Below, piece by piece: positions 19,361-34,786 of a stretch of 64,000 bases of DNA. The stretch comes from Paramacrobiotus metropolitanus (taxonomy: Eukaryota > Tardigrada > Eutardigrada > Parachela > Macrobiotidae). Both the position numbers and the translations under genes were made by a program. The notes below the pieces were generated by a model that saw only the letters and a program-made list of their open reading frames with translations, did not search any database and had not been told where the DNA came from. Every line of letters begins with the position of its first letter. The first letter of the stretch is position 1. The DNA is taken from contig NW_026570419.1 of NCBI RefSeq assembly GCF_019649055.1, positions 62,001-126,000 of the forward strand, given 5' to 3'.

Positions 19361-21461
19361 TCAACGGCGTGATTGAGAGCGCTGTGATGCAGCGTCCCCA
19401 CCTTGAGCTGCTGCTCGTTGGCGTCTTCGGGTACAATACACATAACTGCCCACACCCGCAGCGATGGCCACCACCTGCAGACAAACACGACCTCACAATC
19501 AGAACTTCGCGATGCTTTCTAACAAAGAATTTTCGGGCACTTCAGTGCACAGCAACACAGGCTTGCAGTTGCGGCTAAGTCGATGGAGATGACACGTACC
19601 ACGACCACTCCCACCGAGATTCCGATAATCATCCATATGTTTGACGAATCTTCCGCATCTATAATACATACAATGTTGCTGCTATAGAACACTGCGGTTG
19701 TTCACCCAAACACATGTGTTGTTGAGATTAGCAAAAAGGTCACGATACAACGACAAAACTACCTGCGTTTGGGTTCCCTTCTGCAAATTAGACCATTTTG
19801 ATTAAACTATATTTAAATGCATGCATAGCGACATATCTTGGTTAGACTTCCAGTAACAATTAATTTACCTGCATCAGGTCCTACAACTCCTGCTGTTGTC
19901 GTGGTGGCTTCGGGAACGGCAAGTTTGCGCACGGCACTGTTAACTAGAGAACAAACAATAAAAACTTAGTTCCTTGACGTTTTTGCATATTGTTGTTATT
20001 GTACATACCACCGGATCCGCTGCCTCCCTGGGAATTATCCGGCAGCAATCCGAAGAAGTCGCTTTCCCCGTCGTAATCATAATTTCCTGTACCCTCGGCG
20101 TCGGGCGGAAGATCTGCGTCTCTGCCGCTGCGCTGGAGTCCGCTGGCGTTGGTGGGCTGCACTCTGCCGGCATTGTCGATCACCTGCACCAAAGAATCGT
20201 ATACAGAACTTACACCCTGCTTGTTGTACAGGTGATTCTTTATTCCCATTAGAGCGAAGATATCACCGTGCTAAGGGAAACAGAGCGCATTACCCCCACC
20301 AATGAAAAAGAAAATATTTCAGCAAACCTAAAACCCTGTCTAAAACTGTGCGAGATAGCACAGTTTCCTGACCTGCTTATATTCGTTTCCCCAGTATATC
20401 ATAAATGGGTTGAATTCTTCATTAGCAATAAACTTCAAACCCAGGTGTTTGGCTATGAACTAATTTTTCAAGAATTCACTTCAGGTGTACGTAGGCTTTG
20501 AGTGATATTATACATGCAGACATTAAGGTGTTCATGTCACACATATCAGACTGTCATCCTAATGATTAGGAAGACAGACTGATTTGTTCGACATCTGCAA
20601 AAATAGTTTTGCTTGTCGCAACCGCTCTGTAACGTTGCGAGTTCTTGTCTTCGTCACTCGGTTTTCATCACCCACATATCTTGCGTTCGGTTTTACTCAG
20701 CAACCTCGCATTCTCATACAAGAGTGTCTAAATAGAAAAAAAACAATCCATAATATCTTTTTGCCCAAGCAGAAGACCAACAAGCACGCTATGGTGAGTA
20801 TCAGGTCATCGTCGAAAGTGCGTATAGTCTGCATGTGCACCGCGGCAGGTACGTTTGCCCACCTACCCCCTGACCTTTCTGCCATACGGACGTAAAGCTG
20901 TCCGGCATGAAGTCATTGCACTTGTTCACCGGACAAATGCAGGCTTTCTTGCCACCATCACGGTCGCTGACGCACGCCGCTGTTGCATTGGTTGGGAATT
21001 TCCCACCGAACCTGCTCAGTACGAAACTGAACAGCCTCCATTCCAGTTTTGGAGGTCGCCCTATCCTTAACCACGGTGATTCTGCAAGACGAGCAACAAA
21101 TCCAGTAAAAATAACGTTTCCGCTACCCACTGGAACATTGCTTTCTTTTTACAAACGACATGAGAAACAGCAGGCTAGCATTAATGCGCATATTATTATT
21201 ATGATTTCGGGGCATTTTAAAATCTCATACGTGGAGTTTCTTGCAGCATTGCACAGTAGGGAAATTCTTCAGTACAGGTCCAGGTCCCTGGATAAGAATA
21301 AGAAAGTTTGTTTATCTCGGAGCTTGGCATGATTAACAAGATACGTGGTATTTACTGTTATCCGATGCTGACGGATCGCAGCGTGTGCCCATCACGCAGT
21401 GATAACATTCCAAAGCCGCAACACCTGAGAATGCAAATAAGACGAGCTGTTGTACAGTCAT
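19361..21461 (-). CDS. Ly6/three-finger single-pass membrane protein, seven exons
   Basis: Phase-consistent exons: 21461-21356, 21287-21231, 21081-20867, 20183-20009, 19943-19869, 19658-19600 and 19474-19361, 266 residues. Exon 1 encodes a short signal peptide followed by LECYHC, the classic Ly6/LU entry. Exons 2-3 carry the remaining cysteines and close with CICPVNKCND, the C-x-C...C-N signature. Exon 4 (VIDNAG...) has a YDYD acidic patch and GSGSG, a possible glycosaminoglycan attachment stretch. Exon 5 is Thr-rich (TTTT). Exons 6-7 form one membrane helix split by an intron, then a basic RRRQR stop-transfer and a tail ending in Ser/Arg. It has the same exon plan as the gene at 23484-25599, so the two are paralogues. 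Most Ly6 proteins are GPI-anchored; a true cytoplasmic tail is less usual. Surface receptor or modulator role is inferred only. Confidence 0.8.
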
Positions 21462-22273
21462 TGTTTAATTGTTATTCCAGATTCAGTATGACCACAAAGA
21501 AAACCTTGAATGAGCGGTGCTATCCACAAGTATATCAGCGGCCAAATGTTTGCACGTAAGGACACTGCGCTGTGCATGTAGCCTCCAGTTCCTGATCATC
21601 ATACTCATAGATTCACCAGAGTTTACGATCGTGTTTCTCTGTTCTTTCCAAACAGCAGGTGTCTAAAACTTAGAAGCAAACTTCGCGATACTTTTTTAAG
21701 CATGCTGCATTTACATACTCGTACCAGTGTAAACACACGAGGACATGACCATGCTCGTACTTATCAAAATACTTCAGTGTTTTTGAGGCGTTCCATAGTT
21801 CCATAGTTACCCTTACACACCTACGTATCTGTACATACGCTGCGATAAAGTGTGTACTTGTACCGTACGAGTCCGTATAAACGGCTCAGCATGGATAGAG
21901 TAATAATACCAGTTCAGTTTGCCATGATAATACTGTACTGCACTTAATTATAATGAATAAAATAGAATAAAATTATTATAAGAGGCACACCAAGCATGAC
22001 AGTTTCACATTAAACAAAACGGAGATACCATATTTAAAACCTTCAAAAGTGCCTCGTCCTACCATGCTTTGAATTTTGAATTGGAATTTTTTCTTCAACA
22101 ACCGCGGAATTTGACCATTCCTTAATATTACTGTATGTGGACTAAACGTCACCTGATTATCTGTTAATGGCTGTTACATCAATTTTGTCTTGGCATAGTC
22201 AGCAGAGAGTACTTAAATTAAACGTACGTGTATAAGAACACAATCTTCGAAATGCAAAAATTTTTTCTACTAT

Positions 22274-22774
22274 TTGCAATTTGCATACGCTGTAATAAAA
22301 CATTTTGAGCTGGTTTGTGCATTGTCTTGCTATTTTTGTGAAAAACGAGATTATTATTATGGCCAGCCAACAAAACAGCACCCCTGTGGTGGTTTCAACG
22401 AGCCAACGAATATTTCATACTGGTACAAGCAAACATGCCCTGGGAACTGCATGGAGTACGCCCATGATCCCAACTTCCCTGCGAAAAAGAAGCGCGATGA
22501 AAGTGTGCTATATGGGAAAGGCTGTCAAGGAAAAGCCAGACCGGAGGATATCCATTATGAAGGGCTAGGCCATCCAGAGTACACAGTAGGATGCCATCAA
22601 GCGGGCAATGGACATCAGTATTGCGTTTGCGATACTGATTTCTGCAACACTAGGAACGCAACGGAAATAACACTGGTATCGAATAATGTCCGCCCTTGGC
22701 TACCAGTTCTTTATGTGACATGGATTATTATTTTGACGCTGGGGCAATCAGGGAAGTGCCCGACATGTATTTAG
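22274..22774 (+). CDS. Ly6/three-finger protein with hydrophobic C-terminus (5' end open)
   Basis: The reading frame encodes an extended Ly6 domain: SCYFCEKR entry, a CGG turn, C-PGNC, then CVCDTDFCNTRNAT, the closing C-x-C...C-N signature followed by an N-glycosylation sequon. The last 30 residues contain a hydrophobic stretch (LPVLYVTWIIILTL) suited to a GPI signal or membrane anchor. Most of the mature domain lies in this single exon, unlike its neighbours. There is no in-frame ATG. A signal-peptide-like ORF begins with the ATG at about 22252 (MQKFFLLFAIC), but the splice joining it is not resolved. The stop is TAG at 22774. The gene lies head-away between the two minus-strand paralogues. 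Confidence 0.65.
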   Translation: MQFAYAVIKHFELVCALSCYFCEKRDYYYGQPTKQHPCGGFNEPTNISYWYKQTCPGNCMEYAHDPNFPAKKKRDESVLYGKGCQGKARPEDIHYEGLGHPEYTVGCHQAGNGHQYCVCDTDFCNTRNATEITLVSNNVRPWLPVLYVTWIIILTLGQSGKCPTCI

Positions 22775-23483
22775 ATAGGTTTTAATTACTGTTGTAAATC
22801 TAGCGGTTTTACTTCATTCAACATAATAAAATCCGCCACCCCTGGCAGAGGCAGACGGGTGTCTAGGCAGAGATGTTCGACAAAGAACAGCGAAGCCAAG
22901 GTAGTACCGCAGCCACCTCGATCTGTGAAAGCCTTGTTGAGCAAAACGGCCATCACGGTCCAGATTGTTGTCTCTCATTTTCAAAAAGTACAGGAAGATG
23001 CTCGCATCTACCTTCTGACGGTCGAGGCGCTAAGTTCGTTTGGAGTGGCTTTTGCTGAGCTGATTGATTTTGCCAACCGAAAGATCCGTGAAATTACAGA
23101 GAAACCTTGATCTATGACGTTGTTAATACATCGCTAAAGGCTTGCTGTAGTGAGAGGAAATGCAGGTACATGTTTTGGGTATGCTAAATGCACGTCCCTA
23201 GACCACGAATGACACCAATTTAATCAAAGCACTCTGAACAACGCCAAGTGATCGGAAGTGTCATAAAATAATTCCGTTCGAATGCACCGAAACTGCTTCT
23301 GGCTGTCCTTAATTAATATGGCTATGGTTGCTGTCGATTAACAGCAGGAGAAAAAAATTAAAACATTGGTTTAAAAGTAATAACAAACCGTCATCCCCAC
23401 AATTCCACAAAACAGAATAGAAGTTAGAGTACCCGGTCGCACAATTTCTAAAGTTTTATTTATACTCAACGAAAATGGCTGTA
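22775..23483. other. Intergenic stretch holding a retroelement fragment
   Basis: Apart from the retroelement-derived piece near 22860-23110, I see no gene. The stretch separates the 3' ends of the plus-strand Ly6 gene and the minus-strand Ly6 gene. Confidence 0.45.
22860..23110 (+). mobile_element. Fragment of the same retroelement-like protein as 60850-61393
   Basis: The frame ending at 23110 encodes LLTVEALSSFGVAFAELIDF followed by ANRKIREITEKP. It aligns without gaps to the VIETLGVFGPAFSELLHF-MGRKIRDLT part of the longer copy at 60850-61393. Upstream of 23009 the similarity is lost or out of frame. It is a decayed 5'-truncated piece, not a gene. Confidence 0.6.
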
Positions 23484-25599
23484 TTAGTCTTCCTCCTCCT
23501 CTTCTTCATCTTCCTCTTCCTCCTTCTTTTTTTTCTGCTGATTGCGGTAATACATATAACCGCCCACCGCTCCTCCAATCTGCAGCCCAGTAGATTGCTT
23601 TAATACATTCTTGATGGCAGTGCGTAACGATTTTGTGCTGTTGCGAGAACATAAGAGCAGTACATACTGAAATTTTTTCGCGCTATAATAGCGCTGTATC
23701 CTGTTGTCCAGTTGTATATACCGTATTATGTAACTGTAATAAACTCACCACAAGCAACCCAGCTGCGATTCCCACGATCATCATTGTGTTGGAAGAGCCT
23801 CCACCTGCAGTTCATATGAACCGTCAATGTCTACAGAATATAAGCAACACTCAAATTTTTTTACTGTCAATACAGAACGACGTACCATCGCCAGCCGTTC
23901 CGTCGCCCGTGCCATCGCCAGATCCTAAAAACATTTAGCAGTTGAAGCAACTTTGATAGACAATTCGATAAAACAAACCAGGTGCTTTACCGCTTCCGCC
24001 CGCGCTACCACTACCTCCGGTGCCCTTAGAGCCGGCCCCCTGCCCGCCACTGCCAGTTCCATCTACAATTGCAGTATGATCAATAAAGTAATGTTATAAG
24101 CGAAGTTATAGATTTGCACTAATAAAATAATAAAGACACAGGCAAAAATTTAAGCAGTTTAACAATTAACAAGTCACTGTGTCAAATTACATTGCGTGTG
24201 TCTGATTGTGTGTACACACAGAAATGGCTGCCCAACTGGAACTACTGTACCTCGTCTCCCATTTAGCAAGCTCTCGTGCATCCAGAATTCGAAATAGCCA
24301 GATGCATTAAAAGCTGTACCTAAACTAAGCTAAAGATGGATTTTATGTAAGCGTCTTCGGTAGACGCCTACAGTATCCCGTGACGATGGCAGTTTGCCGC
24401 ATTATACATCGAAGTGGAAAATGCATCTATCGAGCGCGAACGAGACTCGACTGGTAAAACCAAGCTATGTTTTCCGCGGCAACAACCGTACACGACCTTT
24501 ATATGGCCTACGTGTGCTTTGCAGTAGACACGCTCTCGCCATTACTGCCATTGAAGCAGCATGTACATGCAGCCGCGCTGGGGAGCTAATTAAGTATGAA
24601 GCTTAGTATGGGTTGAGTAGGGAGCAGTCATGGAGAAAAGTTTTCTCATGCAAAACACATCGACGTGACAGCAGTATTCAGATACCTGAGCTGCCATCCG
24701 CGCCACCGCCGGTGCCATCCCCACCACCACCGCCCGTCCCACTTTCACCAACAGCGCTACCGGCTCCACCACTCCCACTGCCACCACCGGCAGCACCGCC
24801 ACCCGACGTACCTGCGCCACTTCCAGCTGCACCGCTTCCACTACTGCCGCTGGAACCTCCACCACTGCCGCTGCCACTCCCACCGCCTCCGCTAGCGCCG
24901 GGAATTATCGGGCCCCAATTCGGAGCATCCGTCGGCTTGTTATTGGGGTCGTAATAAACCGGCTTACCGGCATTATTAATAAACTGCAAAAACAGATGGT
25001 GCTATCAGCATTAATGGGGCTGTACTATAGAGATCCTTATACAGTATATCTATATTTCACAGATACCTCCTTCTGTATAGAGAAACCGTAATGTTTGACA
25101 ATCAGTGTGGCTTAGCGTTTCTTCATGCAGACTTTGAAATTCCAATAATTATTGGTCGTCAAGTGCTAAACTTTACCTGTTTTTAAGTTGCTATCGTACG
25201 CGGGCTTGTATTCGCTGCTTACCCCATAACCTTTACCGCTGAACAATGTTGATACATCGGGATCAGTTCCAAGGAAGCTGTTACACAAATCAGTCCGGCA
25301 GAAACATATCTTGCCATGATTATACGGTGAGATTCCGCATACGGAACTGGCACCGGTTGGCCATTTGCGATCGAAGAGATCCAGCAACGGCGAGATAATG
25401 TTAGCGCCCCCAGAAACGCATTCTCGTCCCCACTTTCCACCTGTCACGCAGTATAAGGTTTTGTTACAGTCAGACCTCAGCGAGATAGTTTTAGTTGAGA
25501 CTGGCTGGTCACTGGCTTGCTTGCCTGCCACGTCCGGATCGGAACGGACGGTGCAAAAGCTGCTCGGTGGGCAGTCCACTTTTTGAATACTGGGAGAGG
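23484..25599 (-). CDS. Ly6/three-finger single-pass protein with Gly-Ser stalk (5' exon not found)
   Basis: Exons 25599-25223, 24983-24686, 24062-23991, 23924-23886, 23804-23749 and 23579-23484 are in phase. The first encodes a Ly6 domain closing with CFCRTDLCNS and ending GKGYG at a GTAAGC donor. The next starts FINNAGKP (compare VIDNAGRV in the paralogue) and runs into a stalk of almost pure Gly/Ser with Ala, which continues through two mini-exons of 72 and 39 nt. Then come GGSSNT, a membrane helix (MMIVGIAAGLLVIGGAVGGYMYY) split by an intron, KKKK and a tail of Glu/Asp (EEEED...). Cysteine layout and intron phases match the gene at 19361-21461. The Ly6 exon starts in phase 1, so a signal-peptide exon must lie above 25600; I could not identify it. 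The repeated SG dipeptides could carry glycosaminoglycans. Confidence 0.75.
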
Positions 25600-26229: not shown

Positions 26230-26540
26230 CTGTTATTTTCTGGCTTTCAAGTTTTGTTGCTTTCAAGTCCAACAAAACTTGCAGACACACTGGTTTCCAT
26301 CAACTCAATTATACTTAGCCACTCACATGACAATTTGTCGTTATCGTCGCAGCCCGGTTCACGACCGAAAAGGCAGGAGTAACACTTCTTATTCTGCGCT
26401 CTCGCACCTGTTCATTCAACCGAAAATATTTAGTAGATTTCCAGATGCAGAAGGTGTATTAATAACCCTCAGGCCATATACTCGACCACGCATACGTTTG
26501 GATTTTGGTTTGATCCTGGTCGGGTCCGTTCCTCCCCCGC

Positions 26541-26705: not shown

Positions 26706-27739
26706 CTGTCCACCTCGGGGACGTATTATAATTATGAACAGACCATGATCCTGGTATGCAGGCCAACAGTCATTAGTAAGTACAAAATAATGATAACATT
26801 ATACTGACCTCTACGATATACTAGCAAAACAAGAAGCAGACATGACGTTTGCACCAAACAATCATGGAGTGCGCAGAGCATAGAGATAGACCATCCTTAA
26901 CACCATAAATACTTCAAAGGATTGCGGAAGGTTTTGGCTGACTACGATTTTAAACTACATCCACCATGATCGCGTCTTGGGGATGTAAACAACCGACTCA
27001 CAGAATTCAAAACGATCCTCGTAATAAGGTGATATGTTAAATGAAATAAAACTTGATCCAGATAATTCGAATGCGGTACACATCATAATGAAATGTAATA
27101 AAAATTACACCAGATACCGTCAGAGCGTAGCTCAAAAACGAGCAATTAACAGTAACTTCATCACAATTTTCAGCAGTGTAACACTAAGAATGACGCTTAA
27201 AATCGGAAGATGTTCAATAATTATAAAGCGCTGCATACGTGTACACATACTAATAATGACGGTAAAATTGAGGATGATGGGAAAAAACTCACATTTCGAT
27301 GCGCTGGGTCTTGCATGCGTGAGTATTCGAATTTACAAATAAATACAAATTTACAAAACTTCAATAAAGCACAATGTCTTTTTAACAATACAGTACGTGC
27401 GCTTCATGAACCATAAGATGTTATAATATATGAATCGTAATAAGCGGGTGAAACCCATGCATGTGCTTGGCTACCAGAAAACGTTGGTTGCTATGCACGT
27501 GTTCCATTTCCAATTTCGACGTACAACCAGTATCCGATTTGTCGTTCAATACTTATTATAATGATTTACAGAGACCTTTTTCGAACTGAAATTTGTATAA
27601 TCAGAGTTTTTGTTTCAAAACTTTCTTCGAAAGCCATCAAATAGATCCGGTCCAGTTATACACTCACCGGTCACTAAGGATCATTTTAAATAACTGAATC
27701 CACGCAGTTCTTACCCCCGAGCTTGTCTAACTCGCTACC

Positions 27740-29064
27740 ATGTCTAGCGCCAAACTTTCACATATTACCACCCATGCGTTGAACCCCAACGAACCTTTTT
27801 ACGCTTCCCTTTCCGCAGCAGAGCAGCCATATCTGGCAAACCCGCTTGGGACACTTTCTCTGCACATCATCCACACCAAAAGCCTCGACGCACCCACGAT
27901 CCACCGTCTGTTCCCCGCATCCAGCACTCTGCATTATTACGTGCGCGTTGATTTCTTAGATAAATCTTTCTTCACCAAACTCATGCTGGATGTCCCGGCG
28001 GACAGCGCCCGCATCGTTGTGGATCATTTAATAACCTTCCAAATCGAGGATATCGCCGCTCACGACGGCGCGGAGAATCAGATTGTCACCTTTCATTTGA
28101 TTGCCGTAGACGACGCGGATCCACAGCGTCACATTGTCATCGGATCTGTGGAGAAGGAACTGCTGGCTTTTATTCGGGGCATGATTGAGAGTGAGATGGT
28201 GCTGTTGACTCGGCCGGCGCGAATGGATCCCGTGAAGGGTGGATACGAGGGACAGCGTACCATGGGCATTTTGCTGATCAAGTCAGCGTTTAGCTATGGC
28301 CGGTTTGGATACGGGTTCTCGAATCAGATTGCGGACGAGCGGATGGCGCCGTCGGATGCAGTAAAGCACTGCATGTTCCCGAGGTATGATTTCGTGGTAA
28401 TTGGGGCGTATTCGTTTCGCTTGTCGCACTTCTTTCCCTTCAGAAATGCACCGTTTTCGTACTAGTGCTATCATAATTCGCTTCTACAACTATTTAGAAG
28501 ATTTTGAGATTCTCCCAAAACCATGTAAACTTGTCAAGATAGTTTATAGTTAACATCGTTGACCTTTACATTTCCAAGAAAATCTTGGTTCAGTAACGTA
28601 CTTAATGGACGTTTTGGGAAAAACTCTCGTCGGTTGCTTATGTTTTCTTCTTAATAACATTAGTGTGCTGTTTACCGGCGAAGAATTCATAACCTGGTTC
28701 GAAAAGTGCTCTTCCAAAATGTTAGAATGCTTGCAGATTTGCTCCGCCTAGTGATCGGAAGCAAGAATGCGGAAACGTACTGCGATTTGCAGCGCTTCCG
28801 CCACCCGCTGATTTGGCCACTGTAACGGATTGCGTCGAAGTCGGGCATCCAGCATTACGTGCGTTTAGCTCATCGTCTGATCACAATGAAGAGGAGAGCG
28901 CCATTCGCGAAGCCGTACCCTGGTTAAATCCTAGTTTGGAGCGAACAATCGCAGTATCGAAAGACTTCTTGGCTGACAAGATCAAGAAGCTGGGTTCCAT
29001 GAAAAGCGCCACCAGACAGATGATGTTCCTGCGGGAAATGTGTGCGCCTAGCCCAACGGTTTGA
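27740..29064 (+). CDS. C2-domain protein, C2CD6/CATSPERT-like (tentative), two exons
   Basis: Exons 27740-28383 and 28738-29064 join in phase (phase 2) to give about 323 residues. The ATG at 27740 follows a TACC context. Residues from about 33 to 190 form a C2-like beta sandwich: LGTLSLHIIHTKSL opening strand, VRVDFLDKSFFT, a loop with DDADPQRHIVIG, and a final GILLIKSAFSYG strand. The segment after it (GYGFSNQ...KHCMFPR|FAPP.DR) resembles what I recall of C2CD6, the sperm CatSper-targeting subunit, but I cannot verify this. The C-terminus is helical and basic. The Ca-binding aspartate pattern is not obvious. A decayed copy of the C2 core lies at 34085-34343 on the other strand. If the name is right, it acts in the sperm flagellar membrane. 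Confidence 0.7.
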
Positions 29065-32722: not shown

Positions 32723-34084
32723 TACCATCATGGAAGTTTGTTCCTGATTTTTCTGCCGCGACCTATCCTGGTACAACTACGGATGATATCTACTGACGCA
32801 GCGGCAACAGTTAAACCATGCCAATAAGGCAGTAACTACCTTTACAATGCCGATATCCGACTGTACCGTCGGCTCATGAGTTTATGATCCATGTTCACCA
32901 CAACGCCATAGCACGCGCTATTCTTTAGTAAGGTCATGCATGCTTATTGATTTACTGTGAGTAACTTATCAAAATTGATAGCAACTGATTGTAGAATTAA
33001 ATTTCGAAATTGTGTCTTTTCGTAGCGCAGCAAACTGCGTGAAAATTAGTTCTCCTGAAACGTCATAGCGTATTGATGCGCCGCGCAGTCAATGGGGTAG
33101 TCTTATACAGTTGCAGTGCATAGTTATATCACACCCATACGTGTATCGGTTCCAGACAAACTTTGTCATGGAAGTAAAAAAATCTCGTCCAAACCGCCGC
33201 AGCTTGTTCTTTTTGCCCTTGTAGTGGCTTGCCGGTCGATAACATGTACGATAATTGGAACTTAATGTGATCGGGATATTTCAAAAAATTGTTGCAAGCA
33301 GCTGTCCCTTTTGTAACAACTGATCTTTATTATTTGTCCACAACCTCGTGCACCTTATTCCTGACTGTTGTAAACGTTAAGCCCGTTACCTTCCTGCACA
33401 AACAAACAAGCCGTTCCTTCCAAAACTGAAGGGTTTTGGTTCAAATCTTGTAGATTTGTATGTTACCTCAATGCCACTGGCCGAAGTGGACCATCTGCGC
33501 AAATCTCTTATCGCTTAGTAGTAGCGCTATGCCGATATAACTCTGGTAAAACCGGAATCGGTCTCTAATCAGAATGGTGGAATCCGGTTGACGCCCCACA
33601 TAATTAGACATACAACGCCGTCCACAGCCATGACTCCCGCTTATAAACTGAGTTGCATACTTCGAGATCAGCTGGCAGAGCCGGTTCAAAGAAAATCAAT
33701 ATCAGCACTAATGCTTTTAATCGAACTGCAGCTCGGTTGGAAAGAATATTGTAAGCAAAGGTTGACAATTCACTGCCACTGGAGAATGCCTGCAGCAACC
33801 AATGAGTAACGGAAACCGGAGACAAACAAACCGTCAGCTGGAGAATCGCAATGCAGCTCTCGCGAAACGATCAGCCCATATAACACTGCAGCTGACCGCA
33901 GCGTCGCAGCCGCACTTTAGCATGCCGACCGTCTGACCCATCTAACAATTGTAAAGTTGTATTTCTTTCGGTTGTTAAATACGAAGCTGTCATCAGTCAG
34001 TACACCAGTGAAGTACACCAGTCAGAAGGTCACAACAACGGTGTCCAATCGACAGCGGGAAGTACAGTAATTTTTGCCCGGTTG
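32723..34084. other. Gene-poor intergenic stretch
   Basis: No supported gene or clear repeat. Open frames of about 70 codons on both strands at 33468-33825 overlap one another and lack splice or codon support. Confidence 0.45.
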
Positions 34085-34343
34085 CACGATGGGCACAATA
34101 ACGCCGGAACAAGCTGATAATATACGGGCCCATGGTGCGCTGCCTCTCGTATCCATCCTTGAGATTTAATCGCGTCGACCGGGTTAATAGCACTACCGTA
34201 CCACTCTCGATAATGCCGCGGATCAGCGCCAACAATGCCTGCTCCACCGCTCCGATAACAATATGCCGCTGCGGATCAGCCTTGTCCACGGCAGTCAGAT
34301 AAAAGCTAGCCACCAAAGTTTTCTGGCAGTTGTGGGGTTGCAC
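34085..34343 (-). pseudogene. Decayed, inverted copy of the C2 domain of the gene at 27740
   Basis: On the minus strand the frame reads VASFYLTAVDKADPQRHIVI then GAVEQALLALIRGIIESG...TVVLLTR...DGYERQRTMG. This matches VTFHLIAVDDADPQRHIVIG...SVEKELLAFIRGMIESEMVLLTR...GGYEGQRTMG in the intact gene. Similarity stops on both sides, there is no start codon or flanking exon, and the frame after the match is unrelated. I call it a truncated pseudogene. Confidence 0.8.
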
Positions 34344-34786
34344 CTGGTAATTCTGCTAGCGTCTGAATTTCCTTACAGAGTAAACCAAGTCAAAAACCAT
34401 CTTGCTGATTTCATGATCCTGACCTTATAACATTTTACTGGAAGAAGAAAGTTTTTCTCATCGTCCTACGTTCTTAACATTGCCGTCTGCCGATTTCGCC
34501 ATTCATTGTGCACACAGTACAACTCTTTACGTTGAATTAAACGTTTACGCCAGGCTTCCATAAGTATGCACATGTGAAAACGTCGGCAGTGCAAACATAT
34601 ATATTTTTGTACATATATTTACTGTACTTCGCGGAAAAAATAGTAGTATTAGATTCTAATTAACAATAAGAAAATAACGCACCTGGGGAAGGCAGAACAT
34701 CACATTTTGCAAGAGTGTACGCGTACTGCACTTGGATGTTATTCGGCTTCTGGAGGTGCCCGTAATGCATGTGCCCGTAATGCATG

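Follow-up and report, generated by a model that had tools for sequence, protein, structure and literature searches.

A large family of putative single-pass membrane Ly6 proteins in the tardigrade Paramacrobiotus metropolitanus, viewed from a tandem gene pair

We analysed a stretch of 64,000 nucleotides from contig NW_026570419.1 of the tardigrade Paramacrobiotus metropolitanus (the window), in which two neighbouring minus-strand genes, here called gene A and gene B, had been predicted from the letters of the DNA to encode Ly6 proteins with a membrane helix. Judged by sequence, the two genes are not a local pair but belong to a large family of paralogues with 26 or more loci, A and B included. 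Our overall explanation is that they encode members of a large family of type I single-pass membrane Ly6 proteins with a receptor-like function, an explanation that we regard as evenly poised. Its parts differ in strength: the predicted anatomy and the family membership are held with high confidence, and the receptor or co-receptor role is put forward tentatively, as somewhat short of an even chance.

We reconstructed the exon chain of both genes from splice sites and phases, and GT-AG borders were found at every modelled intron. The resulting features are as follows (all on the minus strand).
Gene A, 26407 to 23484, plus a candidate signal-peptide exon at 26881-26809
26809-26881, minus: candidate exon 1 of gene A, signal peptide MLCALHDCLVQTSCLLLVLLVYRRG, phase-1 donor; the best-scoring ATG exon with a phase-1 donor and a hydrophobic core
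26327-26407, minus: Ly6 exon 1 of gene A (CYSC...C), GT-AG, phase 1-1
25223-25599, minus: main Ly6 exon of gene A, end CFCRTDLCN...GKGYG; splice rebuild; best Pfam match QVR (E=0.052, below the cut-off)
24686-24983, minus: FINNAG exon of gene A with the Gly/Ser stalk (53% Gly, 21% Ser)
23991-24062, minus: stalk mini-exon of gene A, phase 1-1; splice rebuild
23886-23924, minus: stalk mini-exon of gene A, phase 1-1; splice rebuild
23749-23804, minus: first half of the gene A helix SSNTMMIVGIAAGLLV; rank 2 of 60,993 with a profile from 22 other loci
23484-23579, minus: second half of the gene A helix and tail KKKKEEEEDEEEEEED; rank 1 of 43,247 with the tail profile
Gene B, 21577 to 19361
21505-21577, minus: exon 1 of gene B, signal peptide MHSAVSLRANIWPLIYLWIAPLIQG; splice rebuild
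21356-21424, minus: Ly6 exon of gene B (CYHC...C); splice rebuild
21231-21287, minus: Ly6 exon of gene B; splice rebuild
20867-21081, minus: Ly6 exon of gene B, end CICPVNKCN...QKGQG; splice rebuild
20009-20183, minus: VIDNAG exon of gene B with stalk; splice rebuild
19869-19943, minus: stalk exon of gene B, phase 1-1, Thr-rich; splice rebuild
19763-19780, minus: 18-base mini-exon of gene B, phase 1-1; splice rebuild
19600-19658, minus: first half of the gene B helix SSNIWMIIGISVGVVV; rank 1 of 60,993
19361-19474, minus: second half of the gene B helix and basic Ser/Arg tail; splice rebuild and profile scan

The order common to the two genes is a signal peptide, a Ly6-like head, the segment (F/V)I(N/D)NAG, a stalk, phase 1-1 mini-exons, a split helix and a charged tail. 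The head is joined to the next exon in phase 0 (GKGYG/FINNAG in A and QKGQG/VIDNAG in B), the stalk mini-exons are phase 1-1 in both genes, and the intron within the helix is again phase 0 in both (GIAAGLLV/IGGAVGG in A and GISVGVVV/VVAIAAG in B). The original prediction had described a Ly6 head ending in GKGYG or QKGQG and followed by a (V/F)I(D/N)NAG exon, small phase 1-1 exons, and a membrane helix split by an intron at a matching place, and all of these are present. Its range of 19361-25599 omits the first Ly6 exon and the candidate signal-peptide exon of gene A, and its Gly/Ser stalk applies to gene A but not to gene B, the stalk of which is mainly acidic and Thr-rich with one short Gly/Ser run. 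The G+C content of the window is about 43 to 44%. The possibility that the stalk is a proteoglycan with Ser-Gly sites was considered and rejected: in some stalks SG pairs somewhat exceed what composition predicts, but so do GS pairs in most, and acidic neighbours are few, so that simple Gly/Ser repeats explain the stalk pairs.

The helix and tail exons were compared with chance by means of position profiles. The helix profile was made from 22 helix exons on contigs other than that of the window, without A and B, and the profiles were scored at every stop-free frame position of the window (60,993 for the helix exon and 43,247 for the tail). The two highest scores of the helix profile fell on gene B (18.1) and gene A (17.8), the next best position reaching 12.9; chance is therefore excluded. 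With the tail profile the tail of gene A ranked first, and that of gene B had a lower score, yet was the top one among the candidates behind an AG acceptor.

The genome searched comprises 169.8 Mb in 533 contigs. A uniform scan placed the split-helix exon at 24 loci outside the window, and in 23 of these a GT donor stands directly behind the same codon. At the remaining locus, L045, AT stands in place of the donor GT and the reading frame of the Ly6 exon slips; this copy is probably a pseudogene. At L045/L064 (contig C77) a short repeat was seen to be expanded with the frame shifted (AAIGIGIGIGIGI), the donor after the helix exon is lost, and the tail exon is open. In A and B the helix intron lies two codons downstream of its position in the other 23 loci, LV and VV being added. 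Since A and B have this shift in common, it is a shared derived mark that ties them as a tandem pair. The earlier idea of a duplicate family thus stands as far as a related tandem pair is concerned, but the word local does not, because the same split helix and tail occur at 24 or more other loci.

The Quiver profile of Pfam (PF17064, QVR) gave 55 exon matches genome-wide. Most of the matched genes stop soon past the CxCxxxxCN motif in a hydrophobic tail resembling a glycosylphosphatidylinositol (GPI) signal, whereas a cluster on C27 and genes on C15, C36 and C77 run on into a (D/N)N segment, a Gly/Ser stalk, a helix and a charged tail. Queries with the helices of members on C316 and C36 added loci on C197, C8, C21, C53, C134, C234 and more. 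A protein search of the genome also found decayed copies, of the stalk exons of A on C131 and of the Ly6 exons of B on C352. The first region (L016, C131:241000-250500) holds decayed pieces of the window from about 24-25 and 42.5-45.7 kb, the second (L017, C352:16500-25500) pieces from 2.4, 21 and 27.5-29 kb, in both cases at roughly 66-82% identity; from their sequences, both are read as old segmental duplications with gene loss.

Such decay, together with the lost donor of L045, would fit an alternative in which the genes chiefly yield GPI-anchored or secreted proteins and the exons of the helix play a minor part or have decayed. We consider this very unlikely, for in many members the exons of helix and tail show open frames, correct borders and constraint. 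For the pair L032 and L060, the rates of nonsynonymous (dN) and synonymous (dS) substitution are 0.34 and 1.00 in the head (dN/dS about 0.34) and 0.13 and 0.63 in the exon of the second helix half and tail (dN/dS about 0.20); for the head of L032 and L037 they are 0.24 and 0.73. The low ratios at the two ends show that in the closest pairs both the head and the helix and tail are kept by purifying selection.

The heads of A and B have the cysteine pattern of Ly6/uPAR (LU) domains, with a CxxC start and a CxCxxxxCN end. QVR was the best Pfam match of all eight heads scanned (best E=0.0002), and other loci in the genome pass its curated cut-off of 27.3 bits. A search with UPAR_LY6 (PF00021) in this genome gave no match, and its control was equally silent. 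Activin_recp did not match A or B and weakly matched one of the eight heads (E=0.23). That weak match, and a three-finger-type ectodomain on a single helix without a kinase, could suggest decoy receptors of the TGF-beta type resembling BAMBI, but QVR is the better match in all eight heads, and we hold this reading to be highly improbable. To our knowledge TGF-beta receptors lack a long Gly/Ser stalk, which also counts against it.

Several results weigh against our explanation. The QVR scores of A (15.0 bits), B (12.7 bits) and L036 (20.6 bits) lie under the cut-off, and A and B are therefore called Quiver-like, not Quiver. Sequence searches of the PDB with the heads gave no match, and AlphaFold2 runs on single exons (exon 2 of A, and a third gene, C, described below) had mean predicted local distance difference test scores of 40 and 34, too low for a usable model, so that the three-finger fold of the heads is a prediction. 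The head of A has 12 cysteines and that of B has 9, an odd number that leaves one unpaired; an exon restoring an even count was sought by eye between 21230 and 21082 and not found. The unpaired cysteine could reflect an intermolecular bond or an imperfect gene model. Finally, a receptor pattern of variable head and constant tail was rejected, as the helix is more alike than the head in only 10 of 21 pairs. Gene B carries an additional cysteine just inside the membrane (YVYCTRRR), and its cysteines, this one and the nine of the head, might possibly serve an intermolecular disulfide or lipid attachment.

The consensus of helix and tail is GGSNxGLI(I/A)GIAxGV / VILAAxAGGLxWWFKxRKRK. Small residues stand at positions -14, -10, -6 and -2 in 21, 17, 22 and 18 of the 22 members, respectively, compared with about 7 of 22 elsewhere; A and B retain Gly at -6 and -2. 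Hydropathy over 19 residues is 2.0 to 3.1 in the complete members. The spacing of the small residues is that of the Gly-xxx-Gly-xxx-Gly zipper described for a segment of amyloid-beta (PMC3178497), and the helix would on this ground suggest dimerisation and intramembrane shedding as mechanisms. The best PDB match of the family helix GSNxGLIAGxAVGG is the helix of Toxoplasma AMA1 GSNTALIAGLAVGG (E=0.0016 and 0.015), and the APP helix GSNKGAIIGLMVGG is a weaker match there; the Beta-APP model of Pfam also came up, at E=0.06 to 0.13. Since the likeness is confined to the helix, we reject homology with either protein and prefer convergence.

These matches bear on a second alternative, namely that the proteins are sheddable Ly6 molecules in which an intramembrane protease (a rhomboid, or gamma-secretase after a first cut) frees head and stalk as a soluble ligand, with or instead of a receptor function. 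AMA1 is cut within its helix by rhomboids, AG and GG being the mutated sites (PMC5021801; PMC4684317), and rhomboids cut more readily where small residues lie near the outer face (PMC4684317). An IAG near the outer face occurs in 9 of the 22 members, and the genome encodes several rhomboids, although these enzymes are present in nearly all animals. However, A (VGIAAG) and B (IGISVG) fit the motif less well than their relatives, a PDB search with the helix of A gave nothing at E<=1, helices rich in Gly are widespread, and matches between short hydrophobic stretches carry weak statistics. We judge shedding unlikely. A wider proposal strikes us as rather unlikely too: Ly6 receptors would have multiplied in this lineage to over two dozen, with a helix that came by convergence to resemble that of APP and AMA1 and that is severed inside the membrane, a single gene family thereby supplying both membrane-bound and shed three-finger ligands.

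Behind the helix the charged tail is about 20-60 residues long in the family. The tails open with a cluster of Lys and Arg, continued by runs of Glu/Asp (A, C15, C27, C36, C77) or by Ser/Gly with scattered acids (C8, C21, C53, C197). Gene A has this basic-then-acidic tail; that of B has the basic and Ser part only, with one acidic residue. The tails are, by their sequences, variations on one plan, basic then acidic or basic then Ser/acidic, with the Ser/Arg tail of B as the odd one out. Charged tails had been predicted for both genes and are present, but the contrast between them had been taken as a feature of the pair, which it is not: Lys followed by Glu/Asp is common among members, and a second frequent type, Lys/Arg followed by Ser/Gly, bears a loose likeness to B.

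A third alternative is a transmembrane prototoxin, that is, a modulator of ion channels or nicotinic receptors like Quiver or Lynx, in which a helix replaced the GPI anchor and which would not itself signal. No Pfam model other than QVR matches consistently, Shaker and a nicotinic receptor are targets of Quiver (PMC6600238), and most other QVR-like genes of the genome end in a GPI-like way. Within the C27 head cluster, L025 (C27:577434-579663) adjoins helix-bearing members and itself has no pair of helix exons; in its last exon with an open frame a DYYYYDDDED segment, resembling YDYDGESDFF of B, is followed by a GPI-like hydrophobic end. The conserved helix face and the charged tails suggest more than a plain anchor, and we rate the prototoxin as quite unlikely.

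The receptor or co-receptor role that we prefer would work as follows. The Quiver-like head would be displayed at the cell surface on a flexible stalk of variable length and bind a partner there, as other Ly6 proteins do. The helix would use its small-residue face to pair with another copy of itself or with a sister protein. The topology would be set by the basic tail, and together with the acidic or Ser-rich end this tail may form a weak docking site inside the cell through electrostatic or Ser-based contacts. A helix in place of GPI would let the cytosol sense binding by the head. The earlier proposal of receptor-like transmembrane Ly6 proteins is supported as to the kind of protein.

Other Ly6 genes lie in the window. 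Gene C (22253-22774, plus strand) is a single-exon Ly6 gene between A and B, Quiver-like (E=0.009) and with a GPI-like hydrophobic end, and has a close relative at L047 (C85). A fourth Ly6 gene (42660-41180, minus strand) has small phase-1 stalk exons PETTTYEAVSPDAG resembling those of B PEATTTTAGVVGPDAG and ends in a short hydrophobic stretch LSVLLTTMWWIMDVT without a charged tail; a change of anchor type inside the local cluster is possible. The open frames at 27731-28465 (plus) and 33993-34355 (minus) share ADPQRHIVIG...LLTR, with a further copy on C352, and are read as a small repeated gene; the frame at 27731-28465 had no Pfam match.

LU proteins are known as secreted, GPI-anchored or TGF-beta receptors, and in a review of them only the last are transmembrane (PMC6600238). 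What appears new is a Quiver-like head on a conserved helix without a kinase. Among the papers searched none is on tardigrade Ly6 proteins, those with both terms dealing, by title and abstract, with other subjects, and this agrees with the prediction of an apparently undescribed family. If our explanation is true, these loci, over two dozen in number, would demonstrate that a change of anchor can make receptors of Ly6 proteins; they would offer a natural set of variants for testing glycine-zipper pairing and intramembrane shedding, and would constitute a large tardigrade surface-protein family without, among the papers searched, a literature of its own.

Among known systems, Quiver/Sleepless shares with the family the CYxC start and the CxCxxDxCN end of the head, as well as its being the best match of each scanned head. 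Quiver is GPI-anchored (PMC6600238), whereas the A/B family has a stalk, a split helix and a cytosolic tail. The C-terminal GPI anchor was not seen in A or B, where the helix is followed by a charged tail of at least 23 residues; charged tails of 23 to 31 residues behind the helix rule out a GPI signal. The putatively GPI-anchored Ly6 proteins of the same genome, such as gene C, have a QVR-like head too, but end in a short hydrophobic stretch without a charged tail. The helices of APP and Toxoplasma AMA1 share with the family the GSN cap and, after it, the Gly at each fourth position, with nothing alike beyond the helix. TGF-beta and activin receptors and BAMBI likewise carry an LU-type ectodomain on a type I helix; A and B differ from them in having no kinase and no Activin_recp match, and in their long stalk and charged tail of 20-60 residues.
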